Source: an uncultured Lachnospiraceae bacterium (GTDB lineage Bacteria > Bacillota > Clostridia > Lachnospirales > Lachnospiraceae). Taken from it: a stretch of 64,000 bases of DNA. A program made the position numbers and the translations under genes. Location: assembly GCA_947586255.1 (NCBI GenBank), contig CANPXP010000001.1, positions 1 through 64,000 of the forward strand. The letters run 5' to 3'. Under the pieces are notes generated by a model. That model saw only the letters and a program-made list of their open reading frames with translations. It was not told where the DNA came from and did no database searches. This document shows, piece by piece, positions 5,745 to 47,556 of this stretch (its first letter is position 1; each line of letters opens with the position of its first letter).

Positions 5745-6446
5745 ATGAGATATCTGACAGTGATTCCCGCCAGGGGCGGGTCTAAGGGAATTCCCCTGAA
5801 AAACATATATCCGGTGAACGGCAAGCCCTTGCTGCTGTACTCGCTTGAGATGATCACACAGGTGCAGTTCGAAGGGGACGTCGCGGTCAGCACGGATTCG
5901 GAGAAAATTAAGCAGGTCGCGCGGACTGTGCCGGGCATCGAGATTGTGGACAGGCCGGCCGAGATCTCCGGGGACAAGGCCGGAACGGAATCCGCACTGT
6001 TACACGCGCTGGAGGTGATGGAGGCGCGCAGAGGCTACACCTATGACGCGGTTGTCACACTGCAGGCAACTTCGCCGCTTCGGACGCCGCAGATGGTGCG
6101 GGCATGCATGGAGCGGTACGAGGCGGACCGGGACAGATACGATGCGCTGCTCACGCTGACGGAGACGCGGATCGATTATTGGATCAAAGAAGGAGAAGGG
6201 CATTACCGACGGCTCTATCCCAACGCGCCGAGAAGAAGGCAAGACAGAGAGCCGATCTATATAGAGAACAGCGCGGTCTACATTACGGACAAGAACGCTT
6301 TGATTGAGACAAATTCGGTGTTGGGGCATTCGGTGAACGGTTATGTGATACCGGAACGGGAGGGCGTCGACATCAATGAGCCTGTCGATATTCTGCTCGC
6401 GGAGGAGCTGCTGCGGCAGATCGAAGAGGAGACAAGAAAAGGGTAG
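5745..6446 (+). CDS. neuA: CMP-nonulosonate (N-acylneuraminate) cytidylyltransferase
   Basis: IPARGGSKGIPLKNI, LQATSPLR, STDSEKI; adjacent to NeuB/NeuC homologues. Confidence 0.9.
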   Translation: MRYLTVIPARGGSKGIPLKNIYPVNGKPLLLYSLEMITQVQFEGDVAVSTDSEKIKQVARTVPGIEIVDRPAEISGDKAGTESALLHALEVMEARRGYTYDAVVTLQATSPLRTPQMVRACMERYEADRDRYDALLTLTETRIDYWIKEGEGHYRRLYPNAPRRRQDREPIYIENSAVYITDKNALIETNSVLGHSVNGYVIPEREGVDINEPVDILLAEELLRQIEEETRKG

Positions 6447-6459
6447 AGGAGGAACAGAT

Positions 6460-7491: not shown

Positions 7492-7505
7492 AGGATGGAA
7501 AAGGA

Positions 7506-8657: not shown

Positions 8658-9068
8658 ATGAAAAGAGGGTATGTTATGGATCTGGACAGATATTGCGTGA
8701 GAGAACGCTATACGATCAAAGAGGTTCTGGAACAGTTTGAGAGCGACAATCACAGAGTGGCTATCGTGACGACCGACTCCGGGAAGGTGATCGGCGTGGT
8801 CAGCCAGGGGGATATTCTGCGGGCGCTTTCCTCGGGGCGCAGTCTGTATACGCCTGTCAATCAGATTATACGGAATTCTTTTCTGCATCTGTACGAGAGA
8901 GATCTGGCCAAGGCGTATCCGATCTTTCGTAAGACGCAGATCAGCCTCCTGCCGGTGATCGACCAGGGCAGCAAGCTGGTGGATCTGATTACGATAGAGG
9001 ATATTTATGAGTATCTGGAATCGAAGCGGGAGAATATCTGCCGGGATGGAAACGGCGGGCGTAATTGA
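8658..9068 (+). CDS. Stand-alone CBS-domain pair protein
   Basis: IKEVLEQFESDNHRVAIVTTDSGKVIGVVSQGDILRAL ... ISLLPVIDQGSKLVDLITIEDI. Confidence 0.85.
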   Translation: MKRGYVMDLDRYCVRERYTIKEVLEQFESDNHRVAIVTTDSGKVIGVVSQGDILRALSSGRSLYTPVNQIIRNSFLHLYERDLAKAYPIFRKTQISLLPVIDQGSKLVDLITIEDIYEYLESKRENICRDGNGGRN

Positions 9069-9078
9069 GGAGACGAAA

Positions 9079-9762
9079 ATGTATCGGGTTGAGGATAAAT
9101 ATTGCTGCGGGGAGGCCGGGCTGCGGGCCCTGCAGAGCAGAGTGGACGCGGCGCTGCGTCCGGACGCCAACGAGAGCGGCGCGGACGGTTACAGCGTGGT
9201 CAGTCTGTACTTTGACGATCTGGCGGACACCTGTTATCAGGATACGCTGGACGGGAACGAAACGCGTGACAAATTCAGGATTAGGATATATAATAATTCT
9301 TTAGATGAAATCCGGCTGGAGGTCAAGAGGAAGAGAGATTCCAGAATCTATAAGAAATCTCGGCGCATCGATAGGGGAGAGATGGAGCTGCTTCTGAACG
9401 GGCAGTGCATCCCGGATGAAATGTCGGAGCGCGATCCGGCGACGCTGTTTAACCTTGCAATCCGGACACGCGGACTGCGACCTAAGATTATCGTGGCATA
9501 TGAGCGCAAGGCGTATGTGTATGGGCCGGGAAATACGAGAATCACGTTTGACAGACATGTCAGGGCCAGTGATCGCGTGGAGTATTTCGGACGGTCGGAT
9601 ATTGTGTATGATCCCCTGCGGGAGGATGACTGCGTGTTGGAAGTCAAGTATGACGAGTTTATGCCGGATTTTCTGCGGCAGCTGCTGGAGCTGGGAAATA
9701 TGCAGCAGGCGGTTTTCTCCAAGTATCAGCTGTGCAGAGAACTGTATCTGGATAAGGGATAG
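9079..9762 (+). CDS. VTC-domain (polyphosphate polymerase-like) protein
   Basis: YRVEDKYCC...VVSLYFDD...KFRIRIYN...RLEVKRKRD...VLEVKYDEFMPDFL; start ATG 9079. Confidence 0.85.
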   Translation: MYRVEDKYCCGEAGLRALQSRVDAALRPDANESGADGYSVVSLYFDDLADTCYQDTLDGNETRDKFRIRIYNNSLDEIRLEVKRKRDSRIYKKSRRIDRGEMELLLNGQCIPDEMSERDPATLFNLAIRTRGLRPKIIVAYERKAYVYGPGNTRITFDRHVRASDRVEYFGRSDIVYDPLREDDCVLEVKYDEFMPDFLRQLLELGNMQQAVFSKYQLCRELYLDKG

Positions 9763-9826
9763 CCTCTGGAGGGAGCCCGGTTTTCGCGGATCGGAGGCAA
9801 TATTACGGAAGAAAGGATAGGAGAAG

Positions 9827-10507
9827 ATGTCATTTAGGGATATTATTAAGAACAGTGTGTATGAGAGTCTGGGAGGCGGCACCAATCTGACGGCGTCCAA
9901 TATAGTGCTGATCATTGCGATCGCCTGTCTGATCGGCGTCTACATTTTTATGGTGTACAAGCTGACAAGCAAATCCGCCTTTTACTCCAGAGACCTGAAT
10001 GTGACGATGGCGGGACTTCCGCTGGTGATAGCGGCTATCATGGTGGCGATGCAGTCCAATCTGCTTGTCTCCCTGGGTATGGTGGGCGCGCTGTCTATCG
10101 TCAGATTCCGTAACGCGGTCAAGAATCCGTTGGATCTGCTGTATATATTCTGGTCGGTCAGCGCCGGAATCATCGTCGGCGTCGGGCTTTATGTGCTGGC
10201 GTTTGTCCTGTGCATCATCATGACGATCCTGCTCCTCGTACTGGAGATGGTTCCCAATGCCAAGGCGCCGGATCTGTTGGTGCTGCGCGGTCCGGAGACA
10301 GAAATGGATTATGAGAAGCTGGAGTCCGTGCTGAAATCAGCCGGCAGATATCACAGAGAAAAATCGAGAACGATCAAAAACGGAGAGACGGAGTTGATCA
10401 TTGAAGTGAGACCGTCCGACAAGGAGGCGCTTCTTGCGGGTCTGTCGGATGCGAAGATGTTCTCGCTGATCAACTGTATCTCTCATGACGGCGAGAGCCG
10501 GATATAG
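9827..10507 (+). CDS. DUF4956 membrane protein
   Basis: MSFRDIIKNSVYESL..., SLGMVGALSIVRFRNAVKNPLDLLYIFWSVSAGI; follows VTC gene. Confidence 0.85.
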   Translation: MSFRDIIKNSVYESLGGGTNLTASNIVLIIAIACLIGVYIFMVYKLTSKSAFYSRDLNVTMAGLPLVIAAIMVAMQSNLLVSLGMVGALSIVRFRNAVKNPLDLLYIFWSVSAGIIVGVGLYVLAFVLCIIMTILLLVLEMVPNAKAPDLLVLRGPETEMDYEKLESVLKSAGRYHREKSRTIKNGETELIIEVRPSDKEALLAGLSDAKMFSLINCISHDGESRI

Positions 10508-21905: not shown

Positions 21906-22886
21906 TCAGTGGAACTGATACAGTTCTTCCACTTCCTCCCAGAGGATGTCCATGAAGTATTTGGCCCCGTCCTCGGCGAGATGATCGGCGTCTGAAAAGC
22001 GATTCAGATTCGCATAGAACCTTTCGTCCCGGGAATAGTCATAATAATTGACGCCCGTATCGTCGGCGATCTTCGTCACGGTCGCCTGAAACTCTTCCGT
22101 GAATTCTGGGGACACCAGATCCAGATAAGGCTTGGAGAAGGGCGGGGTGATCAGAACGGGTATGATATCGTGTTCCTGGCAGTATGCGATGATGTCGTAC
22201 AGTTCCTGAATCCGTTCCGGCAGAAAATATGCCTCTTTGTTGTCAAAGTGTCTGCTGTAGCGGGCCCTTGCCCATTCATTGAAGACCGCTTCGTCCACAC
22301 CGTTGTCGGCGGCATGAACGGTCAGGGCTGTGTTCAGGGACGGAAACAGCTTCAGGATATCTTCTCCGGCGGTCAGGATGGGTACCTTGTGAGTGACCAG
22401 ATCTACGTACGGATCATAGTCGGGGATGTATTCGGGCGGCAGGAACTGATAGTAGCGAACTTTCATTGCTTCCGCTTCTGTGCTGTTGGTAACTTCATTG
22501 TTAAAAGAGAAATAGGATACCGGCACGAAGAGAACGCTGCCCGGCTCCATGTACTGACCGTATGCGTTCAGGATCGCAAGGTCATAGTCATAACTCTGGC
22601 TGGTATTGGCAAAGTTAAAGCAGTAATATCCGCGCTCTTCGAGGTGATCGTAGATAAAATCGCATATGCCGTGGGAGCTTCCGAGATTCCCGATCTGTAT
22701 TTCCCAATACCATGTTCCGAGCATGTTGAATTTGAGGATATCAGAATATCCCTGCTCATGGATTTTTTTGTAGGGTCTGTTCACGCCCAGAATAACGAGA
22801 ACGGCCGCTGCGGGAATGAGAATGCATTTCAGAATAAAGAACAGGATGTCTTTTCTTCTCTTCATGGAGTTATCCCTTTCTGTCAA
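21906..22886 (-). CDS. SGNH/AlgJ/DltD-type O-acetylation partner protein
   Basis: N-terminal TM; GNLGSSHGICDF block I; DADHLAEDGAKYF block V; directly downstream of MBOAT gene. Confidence 0.7.
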   Translation of the reverse strand: MTERDNSMKRRKDILFFILKCILIPAAAVLVILGVNRPYKKIHEQGYSDILKFNMLGTWYWEIQIGNLGSSHGICDFIYDHLEERGYYCFNFANTSQSYDYDLAILNAYGQYMEPGSVLFVPVSYFSFNNEVTNSTEAEAMKVRYYQFLPPEYIPDYDPYVDLVTHKVPILTAGEDILKLFPSLNTALTVHAADNGVDEAVFNEWARARYSRHFDNKEAYFLPERIQELYDIIAYCQEHDIIPVLITPPFSKPYLDLVSPEFTEEFQATVTKIADDTGVNYYDYSRDERFYANLNRFSDADHLAEDGAKYFMDILWEEVEELYQFH

Positions 22887-24328
22887 AATTGAAAATAAAT
22901 GAATTCAGTCGCCACGCCCTTGGGGGCAAAAAGCGCGATCACCACAAGGAAGAGCACGTACACGGGCCATCTGATAAACCATTTTCGGCGGGACAGCGCT
23001 TCGATCGGATCGGTCCTTAGCGCGGTCAGATCATAGGCGGTGAGCAGCAGGACGGACAGGCATATGCCGATGGCTGCGGCCGGTGAGACGCCGAGACACA
23101 GGACACAGGTCTGAATATAGTTGAGCGGTCTGGAAGCGTCCCAGAACAGCCTGGAAATGATCCAAACGGCGTCCTGGATGCTGTTCGCGCGGAAGAAGAT
23201 CCATGTGAAGCAGAGCAGAAGGAAGGTGACGGGCAGCTGCCAGAAATGCCGGCGGCGAATGACCTCTGCGCCGTGCCGCTTCTTGGGGAAAAGCAGTGTC
23301 TCCGCAACCTGCAAAAGACCGTGCAGGCCACCCCAGACGATGTAGGTCAGGCTGCTGCCGTGCCAGAAGCCGCTCACCAGAAAGGTGATGAGAAGATTCA
23401 GGCAGTGCCTCCATTTGGGAACTCTGTTGCCGCCCAGCGGAATATAGACGTAGTCGCGGAACCATGTGGAGAGGGAAATGTGCCACCGGCTCCAGAAGTC
23501 TCTGATGGAAAAGGAAAAATAAGGGCTTTTGAAATTAGTCATCAGTCGGATCCCGAACAGTCTGGCGCAGCCGATTGCGATATCTGAATAGCCTGAAAAA
23601 TCACAGTAAATCTCGATGGCGAACATGACTGTGACGACGATAAACACAAGTCCCACATAGGAGGCGGCATGGTCGTAGACCGCGTCGACGACGCCGGCGA
23701 GTACGTCCGCGATCACCAGTTTCTTGAAATATCCCCAGGTCATCAGCTTGAGGCCATAGGTGACGTCCGCATAGACAAAAGGACGTTCTTTCTTATACTG
23801 CGGCAGCAGGCTGTCGGCGCGCCCGATAGGCCCCGCGAGAAGCTGTGGAAAGAAGGAGACAAACAGGGCGTAGTAACCGAAATGGCGCTCCGCTCGGATC
23901 CTGCCGCGGTAGACGTCGACCAGATAGCCTATGGACTGAAAAAAGTAGAAGGAGATACCTGCGGGAAGCAGAATCTTTACCGTGATCGGCTGCAGGTGCA
24001 GACGTCCGCTGTCAATCAGCAGATTCAGCCGGTCGATCGCGGGCCCGGCGGTCTTATAGAAGAGCAGGATCAACAGCAGCGGCAGAATACCGCCGAGCAG
24101 ACAGCGCTTCCTGGCTCTGTCCGTGTCCGCTTTCTCCAGGCGGAGCGCCAGTGCGTAAGTCAGGACAGTAGTCATGAGAAGCAGGACGCCGTAGCCGATA
24201 TGCAGATTCATGTAGAACAGGTAACTTGCCGCCAGCAGGAATCCCCATCTGTACTTATGGGGAACGAGGCAGTACAGAAGGAATACGATAGTGATAAATA
24301 TGCCAAAAGCTATAGAATTAAAAAGCAT
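22883..24328 (-). CDS. MBOAT family O-acyltransferase (DltB/AlgI-like)
   Basis: GISFYFFQSIGYLVDVYRG, SFFPQLLAGPIGR, CDFSGYSDIAIG, FWSRWHISLSTWFRDYVYIPLGG, FLVSGFWHGSS. Confidence 0.93.
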   Translation of the reverse strand: MLFNSIAFGIFITIVFLLYCLVPHKYRWGFLLAASYLFYMNLHIGYGVLLLMTTVLTYALALRLEKADTDRARKRCLLGGILPLLLILLFYKTAGPAIDRLNLLIDSGRLHLQPITVKILLPAGISFYFFQSIGYLVDVYRGRIRAERHFGYYALFVSFFPQLLAGPIGRADSLLPQYKKERPFVYADVTYGLKLMTWGYFKKLVIADVLAGVVDAVYDHAASYVGLVFIVVTVMFAIEIYCDFSGYSDIAIGCARLFGIRLMTNFKSPYFSFSIRDFWSRWHISLSTWFRDYVYIPLGGNRVPKWRHCLNLLITFLVSGFWHGSSLTYIVWGGLHGLLQVAETLLFPKKRHGAEVIRRRHFWQLPVTFLLLCFTWIFFRANSIQDAVWIISRLFWDASRPLNYIQTCVLCLGVSPAAAIGICLSVLLLTAYDLTALRTDPIEALSRRKWFIRWPVYVLFLVVIALFAPKGVATEFIYFQF

Positions 24329-24460: not shown

Positions 24461-25996
24461 ATGAGTATTACTTCTTTTTATTTTTTATGCTTTTTTGCGG
24501 GAATGTTCATATTGTACTATCTGATTCCGGGAAAGTTCCGGTGGATGCTTTTACTCGCGTGCAGCGCGGCCTACTATCTCATGAGCGGAAACGGCGTGCT
24601 GATCCTGTATCCCATTGCGTCGGTGACGGCCTGCTATGTGGGGACAAGACTGCTTGCCGGGACGCCGGCGGAGGCTGCCGGGCGGCGAAAACTTGTCCTG
24701 GGGCTGACCGTGTTGGCGAACATCGGTATTCTGGCGGTGTTAAAGTATGTGAATTTCGGAATCTACACGATAGACGGGATTGCGGGACTGTTCGGGAGCC
24801 GGGAGCCGCTCATAGAGAGCGTGGATTTTCTGGTGCCTCTCGGTGTGTCGTTCTATACGTTTTCCCTGTTGGGGTATGTGATCGACGTGTATTACGGCAT
24901 TGCCGAACCGCAGTGCAATTATCTCAAGCTGATGCTCTACGGCATGTATTTTCCGACGATCATCTCCGGGCCGATCCTGAAGTATCGGGAGCACGGCGAA
25001 CAGTTCTTTGCGGCGCATGCATTTGACTACCGCCGTGTCACGCGCGGTCTGCAGCGCATGGTGTGGGGATTTTTCAAGAAGCTGGTGATCGCGGAGAGAC
25101 TGGGAACGCTGGTGGATACGGTGTACGGCGGGTATGCCGATTATCCGGGCGCGTTTATATGGGTTGCGACGGCGTGTTATGCATTTCAGCTCTACACGGA
25201 TTTCTCGGGCTGTATGGATATCGTGCTGGGCATGTCGGAGAGTCTGGGGATTATTCTGCCGGAGAATTTTCAGACGCCCTTCTTTGCCAAAAGCATCTCG
25301 GAATATTGGCGCAGATGGCATATCACGCTGGGCGTGTGGATGAAGGAGTATGTCTTTTATCCCGTGCTTCGGACGCGGTTCTTTACCAATCTGAATCAGA
25401 GATGGCGGCAGAAGTTCGGCAAGAAGCGGGGCAAGCAGTATGCCACCTTTGCGGCGATGTTTATTCTGTGGCTGACGGTGGGTGTCTGGCACGGCGGCGA
25501 CTGGAAGTTCGTGATCGGCTCCGGGCTGCTGCACTGGTTCTATATCGTGATGGAAGAATTGCTGGAAGCACCCTGCGCCCGCTTTATGGAGCGATGCCGC
25601 ATCGATGCGAAAGGGCGCCTGGTGAGCGTCGTGCGCATGGTCCGGACATTTATCCTCGTGTGCATCGGCGATCTGTTTTTCCGCGCGGCTTCGGTGGGCG
25701 ACGCCTTCGCGATGTTGGGGAGGGCTGTCTCGGTGTGGAATCCGTCCGTGCTGTGGAACGGCTCGCTTCTTCAGCTTGGGCTTGACGGGATAGAGATTAC
25801 CATTGCGGCAGCGGCGCTCATGCTGCTGTGGGGCGTTTCACTCCTGCAGCGGCGCGGGTCGGTGAGGGATCGGATCGCTGTCCTGCCGCTGCCTGTCCGC
25901 TGGATGATCTGGTACGCATTGCTGTTTGCGGTGATTCTGTTTGGCTGCTATGGGCCGGGATACAGCGCGGGCGAATTTATTTATCAGGGCTTCTAG
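24461..25996 (+). CDS. MBOAT family O-acyltransferase (second)
   Basis: MSITSFYFLCFFAGMFILYYLIPGKFRW; PLGVSFYTFSLLGYVIDVYYG, TDFSGCMDIVLG, YWRRWHITLGVWMKEYVFYP, LTVGVWHGGDW; ATG 24461 rather than the ORF-track start 23669. Confidence 0.92.
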   Translation: MSITSFYFLCFFAGMFILYYLIPGKFRWMLLLACSAAYYLMSGNGVLILYPIASVTACYVGTRLLAGTPAEAAGRRKLVLGLTVLANIGILAVLKYVNFGIYTIDGIAGLFGSREPLIESVDFLVPLGVSFYTFSLLGYVIDVYYGIAEPQCNYLKLMLYGMYFPTIISGPILKYREHGEQFFAAHAFDYRRVTRGLQRMVWGFFKKLVIAERLGTLVDTVYGGYADYPGAFIWVATACYAFQLYTDFSGCMDIVLGMSESLGIILPENFQTPFFAKSISEYWRRWHITLGVWMKEYVFYPVLRTRFFTNLNQRWRQKFGKKRGKQYATFAAMFILWLTVGVWHGGDWKFVIGSGLLHWFYIVMEELLEAPCARFMERCRIDAKGRLVSVVRMVRTFILVCIGDLFFRAASVGDAFAMLGRAVSVWNPSVLWNGSLLQLGLDGIEITIAAAALMLLWGVSLLQRRGSVRDRIAVLPLPVRWMIWYALLFAVILFGCYGPGYSAGEFIYQGF

Positions 25997-26063
25997 TAAA
26001 GCGGCCGATTATATGATACAATCAGATTAAACAGGGCAAAATATTTCCGAAAGGTTGCGCAGA

Positions 26064-27002
26064 ATGATGGATAAGATAGCCGTTTTGATTCCATGCTATA
26101 ACGAGGAGAAGACGATCGCAAAGGTGGTGCGGGATGCCAGGGAGGCGCTCCCGGACGCCGTGATTTACGTCTATGACAATAATTCCGCGGATCGGACCGT
26201 GGAGCTTGCCAGGGAGGCCGGAGCGGTCGTACGGTTCGAGCACATGCAGGGCAAGGGCAATGTGATACGCCGGATGTTCCGTGAGATCGAAGCCGAGTGC
26301 TATATCATGGTGGACGGCGACGATACCTATCCGATGGAATATGCGGGCGAGATGGCCGACAAGGTACTCAATCACAATGCGGATATGGTGGTGGGAGATC
26401 GCCTGTCCTCCACTTACTTTACGGAGAATAAGCGCCCTTTTCACAATTTCGGCAACACGATTGTACGCAGTAGCATCAACCAGCTGTTCGACTGTGAGAT
26501 CAAGGATATCATGACCGGATACCGCGCTTTCAGTTACGGTTTTGTCAAGACCTTTCCAGTATTGTCCACAGGCTTTGAGATAGAGACGGAGATGACGATT
26601 CACGCGGTATACAACCATATGCAGATCGAGAATGTGATTGTGAACTATCGCGACAGGCCGGAGGGGAGCGAATCAAAGCTGAACACGTTTTCCGACGGTT
26701 TCAAGGTGCTGCACACGATCGTGAAGCTGTATAGAGATTATAAGCCGATGCGGTTTTTCGGACTCTGTTCTCTGCTGCTTGCAATCATTGCTGTCGCGCT
26801 TTTCATACCGATCCTGATTGCGTATATAGAGACGGGTCTTGTGCTGCGTTTTCCGACGCTGTTTGTGTGCGGATTTATCGGACTGGCCTCGATTCAGTCG
26901 TTGTTTGCCGGTCTGATATTGTCGAATATGGCTCTCAAAAACAGACGGGATTTTGAGTATCGACTGACACTGGTGACGCGTAGGTTGAACCGCGCGGAAT
27001 GA
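26064..27002 (+). CDS. GtrB/DPM1-like polyprenyl-phosphate glycosyltransferase
   Basis: IAVLIPCYNEEKTIAKVVRD, VDGDDTYP, VGDRL; C-terminal TM pair. Confidence 0.92.
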   Translation: MMDKIAVLIPCYNEEKTIAKVVRDAREALPDAVIYVYDNNSADRTVELAREAGAVVRFEHMQGKGNVIRRMFREIEAECYIMVDGDDTYPMEYAGEMADKVLNHNADMVVGDRLSSTYFTENKRPFHNFGNTIVRSSINQLFDCEIKDIMTGYRAFSYGFVKTFPVLSTGFEIETEMTIHAVYNHMQIENVIVNYRDRPEGSESKLNTFSDGFKVLHTIVKLYRDYKPMRFFGLCSLLLAIIAVALFIPILIAYIETGLVLRFPTLFVCGFIGLASIQSLFAGLILSNMALKNRRDFEYRLTLVTRRLNRAE

Positions 27003-29090: not shown

Positions 29091-30221
29091 ATGGATGGCA
29101 GTCAGCACAACGGGAGAAAGAAAATCAGCGGCAATGTGATTCTCCTGACGGTTCTGATCGGTTTCTGTATTCTGGCGATCATCGAGATCGCATACGGACA
29201 GGCGCAGATTAGGATGGAGAGAGAGAGACTGGCGCTTCAGGAGGCTAATAATCAGGCGGTGCAGGAGCTCAGAGAGGAGTGGGACGGCCTGAAGGGAGAG
29301 CCGGAAGGCGGCGCGGAATCCGCCAAGAGAACGGGCGGAGAGCAGAGCGGCGGCACAGTGACAGAAGTAGAAAAAATGTTGCTCAATACGAGAAGTGAGA
29401 GCGATGCGGACGCCGCGGATGCGCCTTCCGCTATATCGGAAAACAGCAGCGAGGATGAGGGCGACTACGCCATGCAGATCGTCTTTATGGGAGACAGTAT
29501 CCTGGACAACAATCGCGAGCAGGCCGGCGTGGCCTCACTGATCGGTGACGCGTGCAATGCCAGAGTGTACAATATGGCGATAGGCGGCACAACGGCGGCG
29601 GTTCCGTACGATGAGCCCAGAGGATTTGACGATTGGGAGTCTCTGGGGCTTATGGGGATAGTCAATGCCATTGTGGGAAATATCGACGCATCGCTTTTTG
29701 ACGGATACCAGGCGGGAGAAATCCTGAAGAGCTGCGATTTCTATAAGACGGACTACTTTATCATCGAGTACGGCATCAACGACTGTATGAGCGGCAAGAT
29801 ACCCCAGAGCAAGTATATGGCGGACGGCACCGTGGCGGATATCGCGGATATCGCCACGTACGCGGGAGCGCTGGAATCCGCGACGACTCTGCTGCGAAGC
29901 CATTTCCCGGATGCGAAGATTATCATAGTATCGCCGCATTATTGTCAGTTCTTTGAGGATGACAAATATATGGGAGACAGTTACAGCCTCAATTACGGTT
30001 ACGGGACGCTGGTAGAGTTTTTCCGCGTTTCCGCATATGTGGCGGATCAGCACAGAGAGGATGATGTTATGTTCTTCAACGCGATGGATGAGACCGGTAT
30101 CGACGCCTACACGGCGGAGGAGTATCTGGAGGACGGCATACACCTGTCGGAACAGGGCAGGCGGCTGTATGCGGAATGTCTGTCCAGGAGGATCCGGGCG
30201 GATTTCTATCCGGAGGAGTGA
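29091..30221 (+). CDS. Membrane-anchored SGNH/GDSL hydrolase family protein
   Basis: N-terminal TM; FMGDSILDN, AIGGTTAA, EYGINDCMSG, EYLEDGIHLSEQGRRLYAE. Confidence 0.85.
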   Translation: MDGSQHNGRKKISGNVILLTVLIGFCILAIIEIAYGQAQIRMERERLALQEANNQAVQELREEWDGLKGEPEGGAESAKRTGGEQSGGTVTEVEKMLLNTRSESDADAADAPSAISENSSEDEGDYAMQIVFMGDSILDNNREQAGVASLIGDACNARVYNMAIGGTTAAVPYDEPRGFDDWESLGLMGIVNAIVGNIDASLFDGYQAGEILKSCDFYKTDYFIIEYGINDCMSGKIPQSKYMADGTVADIADIATYAGALESATTLLRSHFPDAKIIIVSPHYCQFFEDDKYMGDSYSLNYGYGTLVEFFRVSAYVADQHREDDVMFFNAMDETGIDAYTAEEYLEDGIHLSEQGRRLYAECLSRRIRADFYPEE

Positions 30222-30245
30222 CACGCGGTGCATGGAGAACGGCAC

Positions 30246-30276
30246 AGGGCTTACCAGTTGCGGTAGGCCCTTTTTG
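30246..30276 (+). terminator. Rho-independent terminator
   Basis: AGGGCTTACC-loop-GGTAGGCCCT 10-bp stem (one G-U) followed by TTTTT, 25 nt after SGNH stop. Confidence 0.85.
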
Positions 30277-30306
30277 TTGCAGTACACTGCATGAATGTGA
30301 TAAGAT
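30277..30306 (+). promoter_or_regulatory. Candidate promoter for FkbH gene
   Basis: TTGCAG - 18 nt - TAAGAT with TG extended -10. Confidence 0.5.
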
Positions 30307-30329
30307 AGAGTTCGATAAGGGGGCTTTTC

Positions 30330-32117
30330 ATGAAAGAGTTGGAATATCCTTTTGACAGCGAATATATTCTCAAGAAATCCAAAAAAATCAGGCGACAGCT
30401 TCTGGAGGAGAGATCGGAGTTCCTGCACAGAAAAATCGCTGTCCTGGGCGGCAGCACGACGCACGACATCGTGAGGGTGCTGGAACTTTTCCTGCTGAAT
30501 CAGGGAATACAGCCGGAGTTCTATGAGTCGGAGTATGCGCAGTACTGGCAGGATGTGATGTTTGACAATCCGCAGCTGACCGGGTTCGCGCCGGATCTGA
30601 TTTATATTCATACGTCGAACCGCAATGTTGTGAAGTATCCGTCGGCCGCAAGCAGCGAAGCCGAGATCGACGCCATGCTGGAGGAGCAGTATGGGCATTT
30701 TGCGGCCATGTGGGATAAGATAGCGGACAGGTATCACTGCCCTGTGATCCAGAACAATTTTGAATATCCCTTTTACAGGGTTCTGGGCAATCGGGAGGCG
30801 GTGCTTCCGCAGGGGCGCATCAGTTTTTTGAACAGACTGAACGGGATGTTTTATCAGTATGCGAGAGAGCACGAGGACTTCTATATCAACGACATCAACT
30901 ATATATCCGCGGCGTACGGTCTGGACCGCTGGGCTGACCCGTTCTACTGGCATATGTACAAATATGCCATGTGTATGCAGGCCGTACCGGAATTCGCCTA
31001 CAATCTGTCCAACATTGTGAAGGCTGTGTTCGGCAAAAATAAGAAAGCGCTTGTCCTTGATCTGGACAACACGCTTTGGGGCGGCGTTGTGGGAGACGAC
31101 GGCGTGGAGAACCTGGAGATCGGGCAGGAGACGTCTATGGGGCAGGTCTACTCGGAATTTCAGGGATATCTGAAGGCGCAGAAGGATATCGGGGTCATGC
31201 TCAATGTCAACTCCAAGAACGAGTATGACAATGCAGTCGCAGGGCTGCAGCATCCTGACGGTCTGTTGCGTCCGGACGACTTCCTGGTGATCAAGGCGAA
31301 CTGGGAGCCCAAGAGCGGCAATATGGCGGCGATCGCGCAGGAGCTGAACATCCTGCCGGAGAGCCTTGTGTTTGTGGACGACAATCCCGCGGAGCGCGAT
31401 ATCGTGAGTGTGCAGATGCCGGAGGTGGCCGTGCCGGATATCGGGACGCCGGAGCAGTATATTCGCGTGCTGGATCACGCGGGCTTCTTCGAGGTGACAA
31501 ATCTGTCGGAGGACGACCGCAGGCGCAGTGAGATGTATCGGGCGAATATCGAGCGCGCAAGGCAGCAGCAGAGTTTTGGGGACTACCAGGAATATCTGCG
31601 ATCGCTTGAGATGCGGGGTACAATCAGGGCCTTTGAACCCATCTGCATGGCGAGAATCGCGCAGCTTACCAACAAGAGCAATCAGTTCAATCTGACGACG
31701 AGAAGGTATACGCAGAGTGATATTGAGAGGTTTGCCGCGAGTGAGGAATATATCACAAGATACGGCAGGCTGGAGGACAAGTTCGGCGATAACGGGGTGG
31801 TCTCCGTCGTGATCGGCAGAAAGGATGAGGCGGCGTCAGCGCTGCACCTGGAGCTGTGGCTGATGAGTTGTCGCGTGTTGAAACGCGATATGGAATACGC
31901 TATGCTGGACGGGATGGTGCGCGCGTGCCGCGCGTGCGGCTTAAAAACGCTGTTCGGCTACTATTATCCCACCGCGAAGAACGCTATGGTGAAGGAGTTC
32001 TACGGAGAGATGGGTTTCGTGAAGACACAGGAGGCGGCGGACGGCAGCACCACATGGCGTTTTGATATTCCGGACGACTATGCGGACAGGAATACGGTGA
32101 TCGCTGTGAACGCATAG
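30330..32117 (+). CDS. FkbH-family HAD-IIIC phosphatase/acyltransferase
   Basis: LVLDLDNTLWGGVVGDDG, LVFVDDNPAERDIV, QLTNKSNQFNLTTRRY, LEDKFGDNGVVSVV; GNAT-like C-terminus; N-terminal SGNH-like VLGGSTTHDI. Confidence 0.93.
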   Translation: MKELEYPFDSEYILKKSKKIRRQLLEERSEFLHRKIAVLGGSTTHDIVRVLELFLLNQGIQPEFYESEYAQYWQDVMFDNPQLTGFAPDLIYIHTSNRNVVKYPSAASSEAEIDAMLEEQYGHFAAMWDKIADRYHCPVIQNNFEYPFYRVLGNREAVLPQGRISFLNRLNGMFYQYAREHEDFYINDINYISAAYGLDRWADPFYWHMYKYAMCMQAVPEFAYNLSNIVKAVFGKNKKALVLDLDNTLWGGVVGDDGVENLEIGQETSMGQVYSEFQGYLKAQKDIGVMLNVNSKNEYDNAVAGLQHPDGLLRPDDFLVIKANWEPKSGNMAAIAQELNILPESLVFVDDNPAERDIVSVQMPEVAVPDIGTPEQYIRVLDHAGFFEVTNLSEDDRRRSEMYRANIERARQQQSFGDYQEYLRSLEMRGTIRAFEPICMARIAQLTNKSNQFNLTTRRYTQSDIERFAASEEYITRYGRLEDKFGDNGVVSVVIGRKDEAASALHLELWLMSCRVLKRDMEYAMLDGMVRACRACGLKTLFGYYYPTAKNAMVKEFYGEMGFVKTQEAADGSTTWRFDIPDDYADRNTVIAVNA

Positions 32118-32118
32118 G

Positions 32119-32147
32119 TTGCCAAAACGCGCAAAAACCTTTATAGT
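32119..32147 (+). promoter_or_regulatory. Candidate sigma-A promoter for ACP gene
   Basis: TTGCCA - 17 nt - TATAGT. Confidence 0.5.
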
Positions 32148-32171
32148 AATACAGAGAATGGAGATGAGCGA

Positions 32172-32417
32172 ATGAGCAGGGAAGAGGTATTTGCAAGATT
32201 GAACGATGTGTTCCGCGATGTGTTCGACGATGACGGCATCACGGTGACGGACGCTACCACGGCGGACGATATCGAGGAGTGGGATTCTCTGGAGCACATC
32301 AATCTGTTGGCGGCGGTGGAGCAGGAGTTCGGCATGAAATTCAACATGGGACAGGTCGTCTCTATGAAGAATGTGGGCGAGATGGCGGATATCATCATCG
32401 CGCAGCTAGGCGCTTAG
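32172..32417 (+). CDS. Acyl carrier protein (phosphopantetheine-binding)
   Basis: 81 aa acidic; IEEWDSLEHINLLAAVEQEFG with the DSL serine. Confidence 0.92.
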   Translation: MSREEVFARLNDVFRDVFDDDGITVTDATTADDIEEWDSLEHINLLAAVEQEFGMKFNMGQVVSMKNVGEMADIIIAQLGA

Positions 32418-32437
32418 GACGCATGTGGAGGTGCGCG

Positions 32438-33970
32438 ATGCCGAGGCGGATATGGCGGAAATTCCATGACGGCCTGGAGGGGCTTGAAGGCAAAAAAGAG
32501 TGTGCGGCGATCTGGCTTTTTTCGGCGGTTCTGGTGTTCGGCGTGCTGTTGCTGACAGGGACGGTCACGTCCGGCTATCATCTGGTGGACGACTGGGAAT
32601 ACGCCAAGTATGTGGATCTGATGTCGCCCGGGCGGAGCCGCTTCTGGGACTGCATGAGGGATACGCTGGCTTTTGACCTGACGGTGCGGTTCAGACCCCT
32701 GTATTATATCCTCCGCGTCTGCACCGCGGCGGTCTTCGGGGTGAATCTGACGGCCATGTCGGTGTTGAAGGGGATGGAGATTGTGGCTGCGCTGGCGGCG
32801 CTCTACTACTGTGCCAGGCACATGCGCTGCAGTGTTCTGTACTCCCTGCTGTTTTCCCTGACGGTTATGGTGGGATACCAGTCGGCTGTCTGGTGGAAGC
32901 TGGGCCCGCAGGAATCCTTTGGCATGGTGCTTTTTGCGACGGGTTTTTATCTGCTCCTGACATGGCTGGAGGGCGGAAGTAAGTGGCGTGCGGTCGGCTC
33001 CGTGTGCATGTTTTTTCTCATGTCGGTCTACAAGGAATCCTTTATTCTGCTCCTGCCGTTTGTGATGCTCTATGTACTGTATGAACAGCTGCGGGGGTCC
33101 CGGCTTACGGTCAGGGCGGTGTGGGCGGCTGTGCGGGCGAAAATCGGTTATCTGTTCGTTGTCGGACTGATTTTTCTGACGGAGATGTTTCTGTTGGTCT
33201 TCGTGATCGGGACGAACAATTACGAGTATATCGGGCTGGATGGCGGCATGACTTATGAGCAGTACAGGACGGTCTGGCTGAATGCGCTGGGAACGGACCT
33301 GAAATGGTATTTCCGTTTCGGCGTGATCTGCGGCATGATTCTGCTGACCTGGTGGGAACAGCTGCGGCGGCATCTCTGGGAGATAGCGCTGACGGCCATA
33401 CTTCTGCTCCCTCAGATCGTCACCTACAGCAAGACCGGTATCACAGAGCGCTATATTCTGCCGACTTCGTTCGGGATCGCCTTTTTCCTGATTGTCGTCG
33501 GCTGTCACTTGAAGAGCTTTGGCGGAAAGCGAAAAGCGGTTTATATACTGTGCCTGCTTTTGATGCTGGCGGCGCACACCCGCGTTATGTTCAGGGAGGC
33601 GGATTATTTCGCCTACCGGGGCAACAGTGTCCAGACCATGCTGGATACGACGCTGGCTTACACGAGAGAGCATTCCGACGCAAAGGTGCTGTCCTGTCTG
33701 GGGCCGAACGTGGAGGGCAACCGGACGATGTACTACTGGCTGCGGATTCACGGGTATGACGATGTATTTTACTGGGATGAGGACAGGCTTCTGATCTCCA
33801 AGTGGTTCGGGGAGCATGAGGATGACGAGGATGTGCTGGAGCACATGGATGTGGTCGTCATGTACAACAGAGAGGACAGACACTGGTGTTATGACCCGAG
33901 TCTGGATTTGTCGGAGTTTGAGGAGCGCAAATGCGGCACGCTGACCATGTATTTCAGAAAAAATGTCTGA
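32438..33970 (+). CDS. Polytopic membrane protein, GT-C-like, unknown
   Basis: ~11 hydrophobic segments; HLVDDWEYAKYVDLMSPGRSRFW; ATG 32438 behind GGAGG. Confidence 0.6.
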   Translation: MPRRIWRKFHDGLEGLEGKKECAAIWLFSAVLVFGVLLLTGTVTSGYHLVDDWEYAKYVDLMSPGRSRFWDCMRDTLAFDLTVRFRPLYYILRVCTAAVFGVNLTAMSVLKGMEIVAALAALYYCARHMRCSVLYSLLFSLTVMVGYQSAVWWKLGPQESFGMVLFATGFYLLLTWLEGGSKWRAVGSVCMFFLMSVYKESFILLLPFVMLYVLYEQLRGSRLTVRAVWAAVRAKIGYLFVVGLIFLTEMFLLVFVIGTNNYEYIGLDGGMTYEQYRTVWLNALGTDLKWYFRFGVICGMILLTWWEQLRRHLWEIALTAILLLPQIVTYSKTGITERYILPTSFGIAFFLIVVGCHLKSFGGKRKAVYILCLLLMLAAHTRVMFREADYFAYRGNSVQTMLDTTLAYTREHSDAKVLSCLGPNVEGNRTMYYWLRIHGYDDVFYWDEDRLLISKWFGEHEDDEDVLEHMDVVVMYNREDRHWCYDPSLDLSEFEERKCGTLTMYFRKNV

Positions 33971-33989
33971 GCGGGCGACCGCCCGGCGC

Positions 33990-34391
33990 TTAGACGGGGC
34001 GGATCAGCTCGATCATGCCAAGTGACGCGTGTGTCATAAAAACGACCTCACAGCTATCCAGAGCCGGCGCCGGTGTCGGCGTATCGATCGGCAGGAAACC
34101 TTCTTCGCGCAGCGCCGCAAAGTCGCTGTCGAAGTCGGCGGTCTCGTAGCAGATGTGGTACGGGCAGTTTTTGTATTTTTTCAGGAGTCCGTATACGACG
34201 GAAGTCTCCGAATAGGGGGAGATCAGTTCGATGCGGTAACCGTCCTTGCGTACAAAGCAGATATCCGCAAGGCGGATTTCGTCCCGGACGGTGTCACGGT
34301 CGATCTCATAGCCGAGCGCCTCGAAGGTGCGAAGGGCTGGCTCCAGTTTTTTGACGAGATAACCGATGTGATGTACCTTGAGTGTGGTCAT
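33990..34391 (-). CDS. VOC (glyoxalase-fold) family protein
   Basis: VHHIGYLVKKLEPALRTFEALGYEI...ICYETADFDSDFAALREEGF...GMIELI. Confidence 0.88.
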   Translation of the reverse strand: MTTLKVHHIGYLVKKLEPALRTFEALGYEIDRDTVRDEIRLADICFVRKDGYRIELISPYSETSVVYGLLKKYKNCPYHICYETADFDSDFAALREEGFLPIDTPTPAPALDSCEVVFMTHASLGMIELIRPV

Positions 34392-37874: not shown

Positions 37875-38870
37875 TTGAAAAGAAAAAGATTTCTGGGGAT
37901 ACTGGCGGGCGCCGGGCTGACGGCGTGCCTGATCGGCTGCGGCGCCGGCGGCGGAACGGACAATGTGGCTGTGGACAGTACTGACAGCGCTGTAGCGGAC
38001 GGAGCCTCGGCAGACAAGACTGCTGCGGTAGGCGGCGGTAATGCGGCGGACGACACATTGCCGGTGAAAGAAGAAAACGGCGAAGCGGCGGCGGAGAATG
38101 CCGTGGTTGCGGATGAGACGGAGAAGATAAATCTGCAGGGGATGGGCATGTCCATTGTGGGTGACAGCCTTTCGGCCTACGATGGTTTCATTCCCAACGG
38201 CTTTAACGTGTTTTATCCCTTCAGCGGAGAACTTACGGATGTATCGCAGACGTGGTGGCGGATGCTGTTGGACGAGACGGGTATGGAACTGTGCGCCAAC
38301 AATTCCAGCGCGGGCAGCACATGCGCGGGCGATTCCATGGCGGAGGATATCCAGTGCGGGTGCAGCAGCTTCCGGCTCTCCTTTACGGCCGGCAAACAGG
38401 GCAAAATGCCGGACATCATCATTGTCTATATGGGAACCAACGATCTGCTCGACGGTATTCCGGTGGGAGATAACGACGGTACGGGGCTGGTGGAGGAAGG
38501 GCCGATTGACAATTTCAGCGATGCTTACTGCATGATGTTAGATAAGCTGGAGAGTGAGTATCCGATTGCGGAAATTTACTGCTGTACGCTTGCGCAGGTC
38601 GGCGACTGGGGAGAGGAACAGCCATTTGTCACGTTTGAGAACAATCTTGGACTGACGGCGGGAGAGTATTCGGAGCGGATCCGGCAGATCGCCGAAAAAA
38701 GAGGTATGCATGTGATCGATCTGTATGACTGTGGCATCGAGATTGATAACCTGCCAGATATGACGTCGGACGGCGTACACCTGACGCCGGAAGGCATGAA
38801 GTGTGTGGAGAACGCAATATTGAAAGCCCTGACCGAACCTGCGGACGGCAGCGCGGCGGCCCGCCCGTAG
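37875..38870 (+). CDS. SGNH/GDSL hydrolase lipoprotein
   Basis: Signal + lipobox LTACLIGC; IVGDSLSAYDG, YMGTNDLLDG, SDGVHLTPEGM; TTG start. Confidence 0.85.
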   Translation: MKRKRFLGILAGAGLTACLIGCGAGGGTDNVAVDSTDSAVADGASADKTAAVGGGNAADDTLPVKEENGEAAAENAVVADETEKINLQGMGMSIVGDSLSAYDGFIPNGFNVFYPFSGELTDVSQTWWRMLLDETGMELCANNSSAGSTCAGDSMAEDIQCGCSSFRLSFTAGKQGKMPDIIIVYMGTNDLLDGIPVGDNDGTGLVEEGPIDNFSDAYCMMLDKLESEYPIAEIYCCTLAQVGDWGEEQPFVTFENNLGLTAGEYSERIRQIAEKRGMHVIDLYDCGIEIDNLPDMTSDGVHLTPEGMKCVENAILKALTEPADGSAAARP

Positions 38871-43909: not shown

Positions 43910-45436
43910 ATGCTTTTCAATTCTTATATTTTTGTGTTTCTTTTTCTGCCCATATGTCTGCTGGGCTTCTACCTTCCGTCGAATCTCGGAGGGCGGGACA
44001 GGGCAGCGGCGGACAAGATCTTTCTGATCTTCATGTCCTTCTGGTTCTATGGATATTTTAACCCCGCTTATCTGCTTATCATGCTGTGCAGCATCGGCGT
44101 GAATTATCTGTTTCACAGGGCGTTGTCCCTCAGACCGCGCAGATCGATGATGCTCTTGGCGGTTGCGGCGAATCTGGGCGTGCTGTTTTACTTCAAGTAT
44201 TATGATTTTTTCGCGGAGATGGTGAACGCCGTGTTCGGCGCATCCATGGAGCTTAAACATGTGTTGCTTCCGCTGGGAATCAGTTTTTTCACATTTCAGC
44301 AGATTTCTTTTGTGATCGATACTTACCGCGGCGAGGTGCGGGACTGTTCGCTCGTCGATTACACACTTTTCGTCTCGCTCTTTCCGCAGCTGATCGCAGG
44401 GCCGATCGTCAACCACGGAGAGATGCTTCCGCAGTTTGCGCAGATCGGACATAGGCCTGTCAGGTGGGAGCGGATCGCGGAAGGGCTCGGACTGTTTGTT
44501 CTCGGACTGGCCAAGAAAGTGCTGCTTGCGGACACGTTTGGAGCGGCCGTGGATTTCGGGTACGCGAATATCGCGACTCTCGGGCGGCCGGACGCGGTGA
44601 TCGTGATGGCGAGCTATTCCCTGCAGCTGTACTTTGATTTCAGCGGGTACTGCGATATGGCGCGGGGGATCGGCAAGATGCTAGGCATAGAGCTCCCGGT
44701 CAACTTTGACTCGCCATACAAGGCGGTGAATATCGTGGATTTCTGGAAGAGATGGCATATCACGCTGAACCGCTTTTTTACGAAATATGTGTATATACCG
44801 CTGGGCGGGAACCGGCGCGGCGCGGCGCGAATGTATCTGAACCTGATGATCGTATTTTTGCTCAGCGGCTTATGGCATGGCGCCGGCTGGAATTACATCG
44901 TCTGGGGCGCCCTGCACGGGGTATTGTATGTGCTGACGCGGTTCTGGCTGAAGAGTGTCAGGCCGGGGCTCGCGGCGCGGCACCGGGCGGAGGGGAGCGC
45001 GGAAGGGGCGTCTGTATCGCGGCTGCGCCGCGCCTTGGGAACGTTTGTGTCGCGGCTTCTGCTGCTTGGCTATGTGAGCATAGCGTGGGTGTATTTCCGC
45101 GCGGCGGATGTCGCGCAGGCGGGACAGCTGCTGGCGGCGGCGTTTGGAGGCCCGTTTCGAAAGGTCTCCGCGGAGCTTGCGGACTGCTTCAGGATGGACG
45201 AATTCTGGTATGTCATCAAAGTGCTGCATTTGGACAACATGGCCTACAGCAGATATATTCTGCCGACGGTTATGCTGGCGGCCGGCATGTATCTGGCCAT
45301 GGCGGGAAGAAACGCGGCCCAGCGCATGGAGAGAGCGCGTTACGGGACGGGATCGGCTATGGCGTTTGCGGCGCTGGCGCTCTGGTGTGTGCTCACCTTC
45401 TCGAAGGTCAGTACTTTCCTGTATTTTAATTTCTGA
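43910..45436 (+). CDS. MBOAT family O-acyltransferase (third)
   Basis: LGISFFTFQQISFVIDTYRGE, FPQLIAGPIVNHGEM, FDFSGYCDMARG, FWKRWHITLNRFFTKYVYIPLGGNR, LLSGLWHGAGW. Confidence 0.94.
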   Translation: MLFNSYIFVFLFLPICLLGFYLPSNLGGRDRAAADKIFLIFMSFWFYGYFNPAYLLIMLCSIGVNYLFHRALSLRPRRSMMLLAVAANLGVLFYFKYYDFFAEMVNAVFGASMELKHVLLPLGISFFTFQQISFVIDTYRGEVRDCSLVDYTLFVSLFPQLIAGPIVNHGEMLPQFAQIGHRPVRWERIAEGLGLFVLGLAKKVLLADTFGAAVDFGYANIATLGRPDAVIVMASYSLQLYFDFSGYCDMARGIGKMLGIELPVNFDSPYKAVNIVDFWKRWHITLNRFFTKYVYIPLGGNRRGAARMYLNLMIVFLLSGLWHGAGWNYIVWGALHGVLYVLTRFWLKSVRPGLAARHRAEGSAEGASVSRLRRALGTFVSRLLLLGYVSIAWVYFRAADVAQAGQLLAAAFGGPFRKVSAELADCFRMDEFWYVIKVLHLDNMAYSRYILPTVMLAAGMYLAMAGRNAAQRMERARYGTGSAMAFAALALWCVLTFSKVSTFLYFNF

Positions 45437-45456: not shown

Positions 45457-46512
45457 ATGAACAAGTGTAAGAGATGGCTGATCGCGGTGGCGGCGACGAT
45501 TTTCATACTGTTGGTGCTGACGGGAGCCCTTGTGATCTTCGTGGACCCTTTTTTTCAGTATCACGCGCCCTTGAAGGGGTTCCCCTATCTGGTGGACAAC
45601 CAGCTCTCTCAGAATCCGGGCATGGCGAAGCACATGGAGTACGACAGCGTGATTCTCGGTTCCTCCATGACGGTCAATTTCGATACGCGCTGGTTTGCGC
45701 AGACGATGGGACTGAATACGATTAAACTCTGCTACAGCGGCGCATACCCGAAGGACCAGGCGAATATTATGGATATCATATTTGACAGCGGACATCAGGT
45801 GAAGACGGTCTTTCTGGGGTTGGATGTGATGACTTACACGGGCGGCGTGGACGAGACAAAATACCCGATTCCGGCTTATCTCTATGATGATAACTATCTC
45901 AACGACGTGCAGTATCTGTACAACAAGGATGTGGTGCTAAACTATATTGTCAGGCAGCTGGCGGATCCGGACAGGACCGAGCTCGCCACGGTCTACCAGA
46001 GCTGGTGGACGGATGAATACTACAATATTCAGTGGGTCATGCACAATTACGAGCCGCCTGAGATCACGGAGAGCGAGACGCCGCCCGACGCATATATCGA
46101 GGGCGCGGACCGCAATCTGCGGGCGAATCTCTGCCCGTATATCGAGGAACATCCGGACACGATGTTCTACATCTTTTTTCCGCCCTACAGCATTCTGTAT
46201 TGGAACGACGTGATGCGGGAGAATCATCTGGAGGCGACGATGGAGGAGTACCGGTATATCGCCGACGCGCTGCTTCCCTACGACAACGTGAGAGTCTTCT
46301 TTTTTCCGGATCAGGAGTGGATCGTGACGGATCTAAACAATTACGCGGACTACACGCATTATCATCCGGATATCAACCGGTACATGACGGAGTGTTTCGC
46401 GGATGGAACATGCGAGATAAAGAGCGCGGAAGAAATGGACGGCGCGCTCGTTCGGATGCGCGCCGTGATCAATGCTTTTGACTTTGAAGAGCTGTTCTCC
46501 CATGAATACTGA
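45457..46512 (+). CDS. DltD/AlgX-like SGNH-type partner of MBOAT
   Basis: N-terminal TM; VILGSSMTVNF; ADYTHYHPDINRYM; immediately downstream of MBOAT. Confidence 0.7.
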   Translation: MNKCKRWLIAVAATIFILLVLTGALVIFVDPFFQYHAPLKGFPYLVDNQLSQNPGMAKHMEYDSVILGSSMTVNFDTRWFAQTMGLNTIKLCYSGAYPKDQANIMDIIFDSGHQVKTVFLGLDVMTYTGGVDETKYPIPAYLYDDNYLNDVQYLYNKDVVLNYIVRQLADPDRTELATVYQSWWTDEYYNIQWVMHNYEPPEITESETPPDAYIEGADRNLRANLCPYIEEHPDTMFYIFFPPYSILYWNDVMRENHLEATMEEYRYIADALLPYDNVRVFFFPDQEWIVTDLNNYADYTHYHPDINRYMTECFADGTCEIKSAEEMDGALVRMRAVINAFDFEELFSHEY

Positions 46513-46530: not shown

Positions 46531-47556
46531 TTATTCGTCATCCGGATCGGGGAAAATGCACTGGACGAACCGGTTCGCCAGAAGCTCGCGTCCCGCGTCG
46601 TTGAAATGGATGTAGTCTGTCATGTAGTTCAGATAATTGTCCTCATTGACGGAGCCGTAGAAATTGTCGATGAAGGAGACGCCGCAGTCCATCGTCGCAT
46701 CCAACTCCTTCTGCAGATAGTGGCTCAGCGTTCCGTGCCCCAGATCGATGCGGTCGCCGTTTTCAAAGACGCCCTCCTCATTGACATGGTGGCAGAACGT
46801 GTGGGACATCACGACGATGCGTATGTGCGGATAAGCGTCCTGGATCGCCTTGACGCCGGCGCGCAGGGCGCCTGTGTAGGTGATGACATCGTACGGTGCG
46901 TTGGGATCGTCGCAGGGGCGCATGTTGATGTAGTCGCTGGCGTCGTACATGACACAGAGATAGTCCACGCTGTTCATGTCGAGAGAGGCGAGCATCTCGG
47001 TCGTTTTAGGGACGGCTTCGTCGTAGCTGTAGGCGGCCGCGTCGCGCATGTCGTCGAAGTTGCCCGACGCAAGGCTTTGTGCCACGGAGGCGAAGGAAAA
47101 GGCGTCCAGATAATACCAGTTCTGATAGGTCGGATTCTTCATCGCTATCGTAGTGCCTGTGAACGAGCCGTTGTAGACAACGGCGCCTGTCTTTGCGGCG
47201 ATCTGCTCCGCCAGGCCGTTCTCGCCCTGGTTCAGGGAGAAGGGATCGTCCCCGAGGCACAGAATGGTGGTTACGCCGTCATCCACGTATCCCTCCCGCT
47301 TGTCGGGGGCGAGCGGAATGATACTGTCCATCACCTCGATGTCGAAAGCGGTTGTCTGTTCATTGGGATCGTAGTCGGACGGCACGCCCTTGTTCCATCT
47401 ATAGAGGCGGAAAGCGGAGAATGCCACAATCAGTACGATGGCGGCAATCAGAATGACATGAATATTTATGTGAAAGCGTCTGCCGGCTTCCGGCTGTTCA
47501 TCGATTTCCTGTTCGTTTATTTCCTGCTCATTTATTTCCTGTTGGTTTTCGCTCAT
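46531..47556 (-). CDS. Membrane-anchored SGNH-like protein with degenerate block I (GDDP)
   Basis: N-terminal TM; ILCLGDDPFSLNQ; TDYIHFNDAGRELLA. Confidence 0.7.
   Translation of the reverse strand: MSENQQEINEQEINEQEIDEQPEAGRRFHINIHVILIAAIVLIVAFSAFRLYRWNKGVPSDYDPNEQTTAFDIEVMDSIIPLAPDKREGYVDDGVTTILCLGDDPFSLNQGENGLAEQIAAKTGAVVYNGSFTGTTIAMKNPTYQNWYYLDAFSFASVAQSLASGNFDDMRDAAAYSYDEAVPKTTEMLASLDMNSVDYLCVMYDASDYINMRPCDDPNAPYDVITYTGALRAGVKAIQDAYPHIRIVVMSHTFCHHVNEEGVFENGDRIDLGHGTLSHYLQKELDATMDCGVSFIDNFYGSVNEDNYLNYMTDYIHFNDAGRELLANRFVQCIFPDPDDE

Follow-up and report, generated by a model that had tools for sequence, protein, structure and literature searches.

The window, i.e., the whole stretch of DNA analysed, comprises 64,000 nucleotides from an uncultured Lachnospiraceae bacterium (contig CANPXP010000001.1, positions 1 to 64,000 of the forward strand). 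The draft genome to which it belongs measures 2.78 Mb and is 85% complete, and a search gave Lachnospiraceae as its nearest relatives. The window is a surface-polysaccharide cluster: genes of nonulosonic-acid type lie at 1.7-8.7 kb, accompanied by rhamnose genes, several glycosyltransferases and an ABC exporter of the Wzm/Wzt type. An original prediction, made from the DNA alone, had read five genes in a row between 29091 and 34391, for an SGNH protein, an FkbH protein, an acyl carrier protein (ACP), a membrane protein and a VOC protein, and all five lie there at about those coordinates. Three of them, together with an upstream gene for an MBOAT acyltransferase, are candidate parts of a module resembling the Dlt system:

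24461-25996, + strand: MBOAT_B, a DltB-like acyltransferase of 511 amino acids (PF03062, E 6e-15)
29091-30221, + strand: SGNH_1, a membrane-anchored extracytoplasmic SGNH protein (PF13472, E 3e-10)
30330-32117, + strand: FkbH-type HAD loader of 595 amino acids (TIGR01686, E 3e-80, 270 bits against a cut-off of 147; PF21211)
32172-32417, + strand: dedicated ACP of 81 amino acids, with the phosphopantetheine serine, Ser39, in its DSL motif (codon 32286-32288; PF00550 PP-binding, E 7e-5)

These five genes and the MBOAT genes of the window are real and not chance open frames, because the catalytic residues are conserved among orthologues from dozens of genera. Small open reading frames antisense to the ACP gene (c13, c28) are gene-calling artefacts.

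The genome holds a single FkbH, which has an HAD-IIIC domain with the DxDxT motif and the SC-motif cysteine that characterise FkbH glyceryl loaders. The conserved cysteine of FkbH proteins acts covalently in glyceryl loading; here it is Cys514 (codon 31869-31871), invariant together with D244, D246, K296, K328, D350 and D351 in the 128 relatives compared, with one differing sequence each at T248 and S295. Ser39 of the ACP is kept in 143 of 143 aligned sequences. This ACP scores 20.8 bits with the fatty-acid ACP model (cut-off 70), which three other ACPs of the genome pass, and it is distinct from these three fatty-acid-type ACPs encoded elsewhere; one phosphopantetheinyl transferase is encoded in the genome. 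The established role of FkbH, in polyketide and methoxymalonyl-ACP pathways, is glyceryl loading from 1,3-bisphosphoglycerate (PMC7489565).

The best match of MBOAT_B in the PDB is DltB, both by sequence and by fold (template-modelling score 0.75 on the target; mean model confidence, pLDDT, 85), and with the DltB model MBOAT_B reaches 143 bits against a cut-off of 375. His344 (codon 25490-25492) and Tyr508 (codon 25982-25984) are kept in 20 of 20 aligned sequences. The C-terminus of MBOAT_B itself carries the hexapeptide FIYQGF, a form of the FxYxxF motif that has been shown to be an acyl-tyrosine shuttle in PatA and DltX (PMC12148441, 2025). The motif is present in nearly all orthologues, and a relaxed form of it fits 37 of 40 FkbH-linked MBOATs, whereas DltB-type proteins (L176-L178) are without it. 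In a tree of 124 MBOATs, MBOAT_B falls in a clade of 43 members (Shimodaira–Hasegawa-like approximate likelihood-ratio support, SH-aLRT, 100), of which 30 directly adjoin FkbH/ACP, nine are in the same cluster, two adjoin an ACP only and two lie elsewhere in FkbH-positive genomes; the loci were gathered partly by FkbH, so this count is biased if taken alone. The clade is nested in one of 70 rows (SH-aLRT 98), together with MBOATs linked to an adenylation ligase and ACP, and the closest paralogues of MBOAT_B in its own genome sit in two operons for an adenylation ligase, a carrier and an MBOAT.

These two operons (L096:8655-12955 and L097:1413-5366, on contigs C2 and C3) encode MBOATs with a fused FxYxxF motif; one operon includes a formyltransferase, and in the other the AMP-ligase carries a fused nitroreductase domain. 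Similar operons for ligase, carrier, MBOAT and SGNH occur commonly in the family (L156-L168), and some of these also encode a decarboxylase-like pyridoxal phosphate (PLP) enzyme. MBOAT/SGNH systems other than Dlt have been described as having no carrier protein (PMC12148441); unlike that statement, carrier and fused motif occur together both here and in the ligase operons.

In SGNH_1, Ser136 of the GDSI motif and D348xxH351 form a complete triad, invariant in 22 orthologues, some of which are lipoprotein-like. SGNH_1 is present in 41 loci without an SGNH gene adjoining MBOAT_B and in one locus with such a gene, a count confounded by shared lineage. This distribution fits a partner role for MBOAT_B, with SGNH_1 as the putative transferase that passes the acyl group to the glycan, i.e., in the role of DltD or PatB.

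The association recurs well beyond this genome. In a scan of genome contigs, 80 loci were read; many have a contiguous FkbH-ACP-MBOAT order, the MBOAT being a relative of MBOAT_B. The cassette is permuted: the order in the window is MBOAT_B, a GT2 glycosyltransferase, (a membrane protein), SGNH_1, FkbH and ACP, and in L041 it is FkbH, ACP, MBOAT_B, GT2 and SGNH_1. Compact operons also occur, several of them in other families of the class, in the order MBOAT, ALGX/SGNH, FkbH and ACP (L112, L198, L199, L201 and L205) or FkbH, ACP, MBOAT and SGNH (L105); these lie among unrelated or housekeeping genes with no polyketide synthase (PKS) or non-ribosomal peptide synthetase (NRPS) nearby, and the two of their SGNH proteins that were scanned belong to the ALGX family. 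In genome G190, an ACP lies with MBOAT_B and an SGNH gene on a contig other than that of FkbH (L148); therefore, carrier and MBOAT travel together. One family has FkbH-ACP-MBOAT operons (L200-L208) in which the MBOAT motif ends FIYARI, not FxYxxF, and MBOAT_B is followed by a gene for a protein of about 200 amino acids; this gene was considered as an SGNH candidate and rejected, as Pfam identifies an HAD phosphatase.

In an unselected sample of the family, an MBOAT lies within 2 kb of FkbH in 23 of 39 loci of FkbH clades I and II, versus none of eight loci with more distant FkbH (Fisher p 0.002). The original prediction had named FkbH/ACP pairs found mostly with PKS or NRPS genes, and not with MBOATs, as the pattern that would speak against it; for the clades of this FkbH the opposite holds. 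A sample of 338 genomes from across the class contained 13 clade I loci outside the family; 12 of these have a nearby MBOAT, and the remaining one lies on a short contig, where an SGNH gene is its neighbour. A search with MBOAT_B over 249 family genomes is free of the bias that comes from gathering loci by FkbH: all ten genomes with a match above 390 bits have a clade I FkbH, versus 30 of 249 overall (Fisher 1e-10). Chance linkage of FkbH and MBOAT, at the MBOAT density of the genome, is about 0.026 per locus; the family genomes are related, so binomial figures overstate the certainty, and more weight attaches to the recurrence in different families and gene orders. The link between FkbH/ACP and MBOAT is clade-specific, because the partners of more distant FkbH/carrier pairs are GNAT/NeuB or NRPS genes. 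In the FkbH tree, the MBOAT-linked branch is separate from the GNAT/NeuB-linked branch (support 99 each). The latter, outgroup genes lie in FkbH-ACP-GNAT-NeuB operons (L115, L118, L119, L213-L215), an arrangement suggesting that a nonulosonic-acid precursor receives the same acyl group in the cytosol.

Thus interpreted, the locus probably encodes a Dlt-like module for extracytoplasmic acylation in which FkbH is the loading enzyme. The support comprises the genes themselves, their intact catalytic residues, the FkbH-ACP-MBOAT-SGNH association, the carrier-linked ancestry of the MBOAT and its fold; the glyceryl identity of the cargo, the direction of transfer and the acceptor glycan are predicted. 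By analogy with the biochemistry of polyketide FkbH proteins, FkbH would take the D-glyceryl group of 1,3-bisphosphoglycerate, an intermediate of glycolysis, onto Cys514, the HAD site would remove the phosphate, and the glyceryl group would pass to the phosphopantetheine thiol of the ACP. MBOAT_B would then take it from the ACP on the cytoplasmic side and move it through the membrane to its own Tyr508, a mechanism known from PatA and DltB/DltX and extended to MBOAT_B on the basis of its motif and fold. Outside the membrane, the serine of an SGNH protein, in this genome most likely SGNH_1, would accept the glyceryl group, and the SGNH protein would form an ester on a hydroxyl of the surface polysaccharide that the surrounding cluster produces. 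The original prediction had proposed that FkbH replaces DltA, that the ACP replaces DltC and that an MBOAT/SGNH pair moves the acyl group, and the conserved association and the carrier-linked ancestry of MBOAT_B support this. One correction concerns the shuttle motif, which, as in PatA, is part of the MBOAT and not of a separate DltX.

The remaining features of the window that bear on this reading are:

21906-22886: SGNH/DltD-like neighbour of MBOAT_A
22883-24328, - strand: MBOAT_A (PF03062)
26055-27002, + strand: GT2 glycosyltransferase, accessory, which travels with MBOAT_B and SGNH_1 (PF00535)
32423-33970, + strand: polytopic membrane protein with no Pfam family, putatively GT-C-like
33990-34391, - strand: VOC protein, methylmalonyl-CoA-epimerase-like, accessory (PF13669, E 2e-17)
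43910-45436, + strand: MBOAT_C (PF03062)
45457-46512: SGNH/DltD-like neighbour of MBOAT_C

The original prediction had listed MBOAT_A, MBOAT_B and MBOAT_C together; of these three, only MBOAT_B is tied to FkbH/ACP. The other two were rejected as partners of FkbH in the window, as both are placed outside the carrier-linked MBOAT clade and are accompanied by SGNH genes of their own. The membrane protein at 32423-33970 was rejected as a core part, being absent or replaced in many FkbH-ACP-MBOAT loci. Two more extracytoplasmic SGNH proteins are encoded at 37875-38870 and 46531-47556, and a VTC-domain protein lies beside a DUF4956 membrane protein at 9007-10507, inside the glycan cluster.

The same machinery could carry another cargo, e.g., as a general hydroxyacyl transfer system (L-glyceryl after the action of the VOC protein, lactyl, or another group formed via MaoC and SDR enzymes), so that "glyceryl" would be wrong for some members; this is a possibility to be kept in mind, though distinctly the less probable one. 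The VOC protein has strong PDB matches to 3hdp and 2qh0 and weak matches to methylmalonyl-CoA epimerases (MMCE), and its putative metal ligands (H8, E55, H79 and E128) are present in 58 of 58 sequences. It recurs beside FkbH/ACP in distant clades, but not in every locus. A role as C2 epimerase of glyceryl-ACP is plausible, because the four putative ligands are kept and the gene recurs beside FkbH-ACP; an inversion of C2 would be a speculative additional step in the pathway outlined above. Genes for MaoC and SDR proteins directly follow FkbH-ACP in L129, L149, L153 and L197 and follow the MBOAT in L137; dehydration and reduction of glyceryl-ACP would yield lactyl-ACP. In L069, L076 and L078, FkbH is followed by split transketolase halves, a MaoC-like dehydratase, an ACP and an SDR reductase (L069 and L078 also have an MBOAT and SGNH); such a gene set could lead to a hydroxyacyl group that is larger or reduced. 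On the other side, the window yielded no MaoC or matching SDR relative, and L112, L198 and L199 hold only MBOAT, SGNH, FkbH and ACP, so plain glyceryl is the simplest cargo there. Glyceric acid has been reported in a clostridial surface polymer, the lipoteichoic acid of Clostridioides difficile, but linked to C1 of a sugar and not as an ester (PMC10642750).

It is improbable that glyceryl-ACP is used inside the cell, with a cytosolic transferase that N-glycerylates an amino sugar and with cluster MBOATs that carry out ordinary O-acetylation from acetyl-CoA. The GNAT-NeuB operons of the outgroup FkbH clade would be in keeping with such a use, as would the NeuB, UDP-GlcNAc-2-epimerase-type and cytidylyltransferase genes of the window (5745-8654) and the separate SGNH partners of MBOAT_A and MBOAT_C. 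However, no relative of the outgroup GNAT was found in the window, the two kinds of FkbH occupy separate branches, and MBOAT_B groups with the carrier-linked MBOATs. Least credible of all, and very improbable, is that FkbH-ACP feeds a polyketide- or NRPS-like product or methoxymalonyl-ACP, and that it lies near MBOATs only because both collect in surface-glycan islands. This would agree with the established role of FkbH, and a few weakly matching FkbH genes of the family do lie in or beside NRPS-like genes (L122, L124, L125). Yet, as the original prediction had noted, there is no PKS, NRPS or FkbI/J/K-type gene among the window open reading frames scanned against Pfam; the compact operons lie outside glycan islands; and the linkage in 23 of 39 and 12 of 13 loci far exceeds that by chance.

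Several observations weigh against the Dlt-like module with an FkbH loader. An MBOAT within 2 kb is missing from 16 of the 39 sampled clade I and II loci, some of which are contig ends; genomes G190, G193, G165 and G232 have a related MBOAT elsewhere, yet the two explanations together do not cover all 16. A rumen-type group has FkbH-ACP alone, fixed beside apparent pfkA-dnaX-ybaB-recR genes (L039, L040, L044, L046, L053, L055, L059, L074); one of these genomes, G193, does have an MBOAT of the right clade at a distance of 18 kb. Even in the window, 4.3 kb and several other genes separate MBOAT_B from FkbH, and in L056, L127 and L128 the partner of FkbH is of the MBOAT_C type, so the pairing varies. 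The fold of SGNH_1 matches general GDSL esterases, not DltD or PatB; it may be a transferase or an esterase. Finally, sequence does not reveal the substrate specificity of FkbH; the cargo may be lactyl or some other acyl group, particularly in the loci with MaoC and SDR genes.

On balance, the evidence leans towards a distinct branch of transmembrane glycan acylation in many Clostridia, with 1,3-bisphosphoglycerate as the acyl source, FkbH in place of an ATP-dependent ligase, a carrier-dependent MBOAT with its own tyrosine shuttle, and a glyceryl ester (or lactyl-like derivative) on a surface polysaccharide. The module shares with Dlt (DltA-DltC-DltB-DltX-DltD) a carrier thioester donor, an MBOAT of the DltB fold, an extracytoplasmic SGNH protein and, in many loci, contiguous genes for loader, carrier, MBOAT and SGNH; as in Dlt, the carrier is dedicated and linked to the MBOAT, the ACP adjoining both FkbH and MBOAT in many loci. 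It differs from Dlt in that the loader is FkbH, an HAD protein without ATP-dependent adenylation, and not DltA; the acyl group is predicted to be glyceryl, which is uncharged, and not D-alanyl; and the MBOAT itself bears FxYxxF, with no DltX. No DltA exceeded the TIGR01734 cut-off of 560 bits in this genome (85% complete), the best match scoring 323. Although it would operate in the manner of Dlt, the module does not belong to that system: it has neither DltA nor DltX, and its MBOAT does not reach the cut-off of the DltB model.

With PatA/PatB and AlgI/AlgJ-AlgX, the module has in common an MBOAT with a fused C-terminal FxYxxF and, in some relatives, an ALGX-type SGNH protein, whereas those systems use acetyl-CoA and no carrier protein (PMC12148441); the linked carrier argues against an acyl-CoA donor for MBOAT_B, as judged from gene content. 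Like the FkbH/ACP pairs of tetronate and methoxymalonyl pathways (tetromadurin Mad7/Mad8 and Mad14/Mad12), it has an FkbH with conserved HAD and cysteine residues beside a stand-alone ACP; it is without the FabH-like tetronate enzyme, dehydrogenases, methyltransferase partner and PKS of those pathways, and glyceryl-ACP appears to be an end donor. Closest in their MBOATs are the Lachnospiraceae operons for AMP-ligase, carrier, MBOAT and SGNH (L096, L097, L156-L168), which have the same carrier-MBOAT core, fused motif and, in most, an SGNH protein, but have an adenylation ligase instead of FkbH and in some cases a formyltransferase or PLP enzymes.

In the open-access literature, no joining of FkbH with an MBOAT was found outside cyanobacterial NRPS clusters, which is weak evidence of novelty; FkbH together with O-antigen gave nothing, and MBOAT with acyl carrier protein and polysaccharide gave unrelated papers only. 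If the proposed pathway is correct, decoration of the surface glycan would be tied directly to glycolytic flux, and the Dlt-type pathways would gain an acyl group and a loading chemistry that are new to them. MBOATs with a fused shuttle motif could then be carrier-dependent, against the statement that only Dlt uses a carrier (PMC12148441). Such an unrecognised modification of bacterial surfaces may even be common, because FkbH clades I and II occur in 40 of 249 sampled genomes of the family (about one-sixth) and the module is found in at least four other families of the class.

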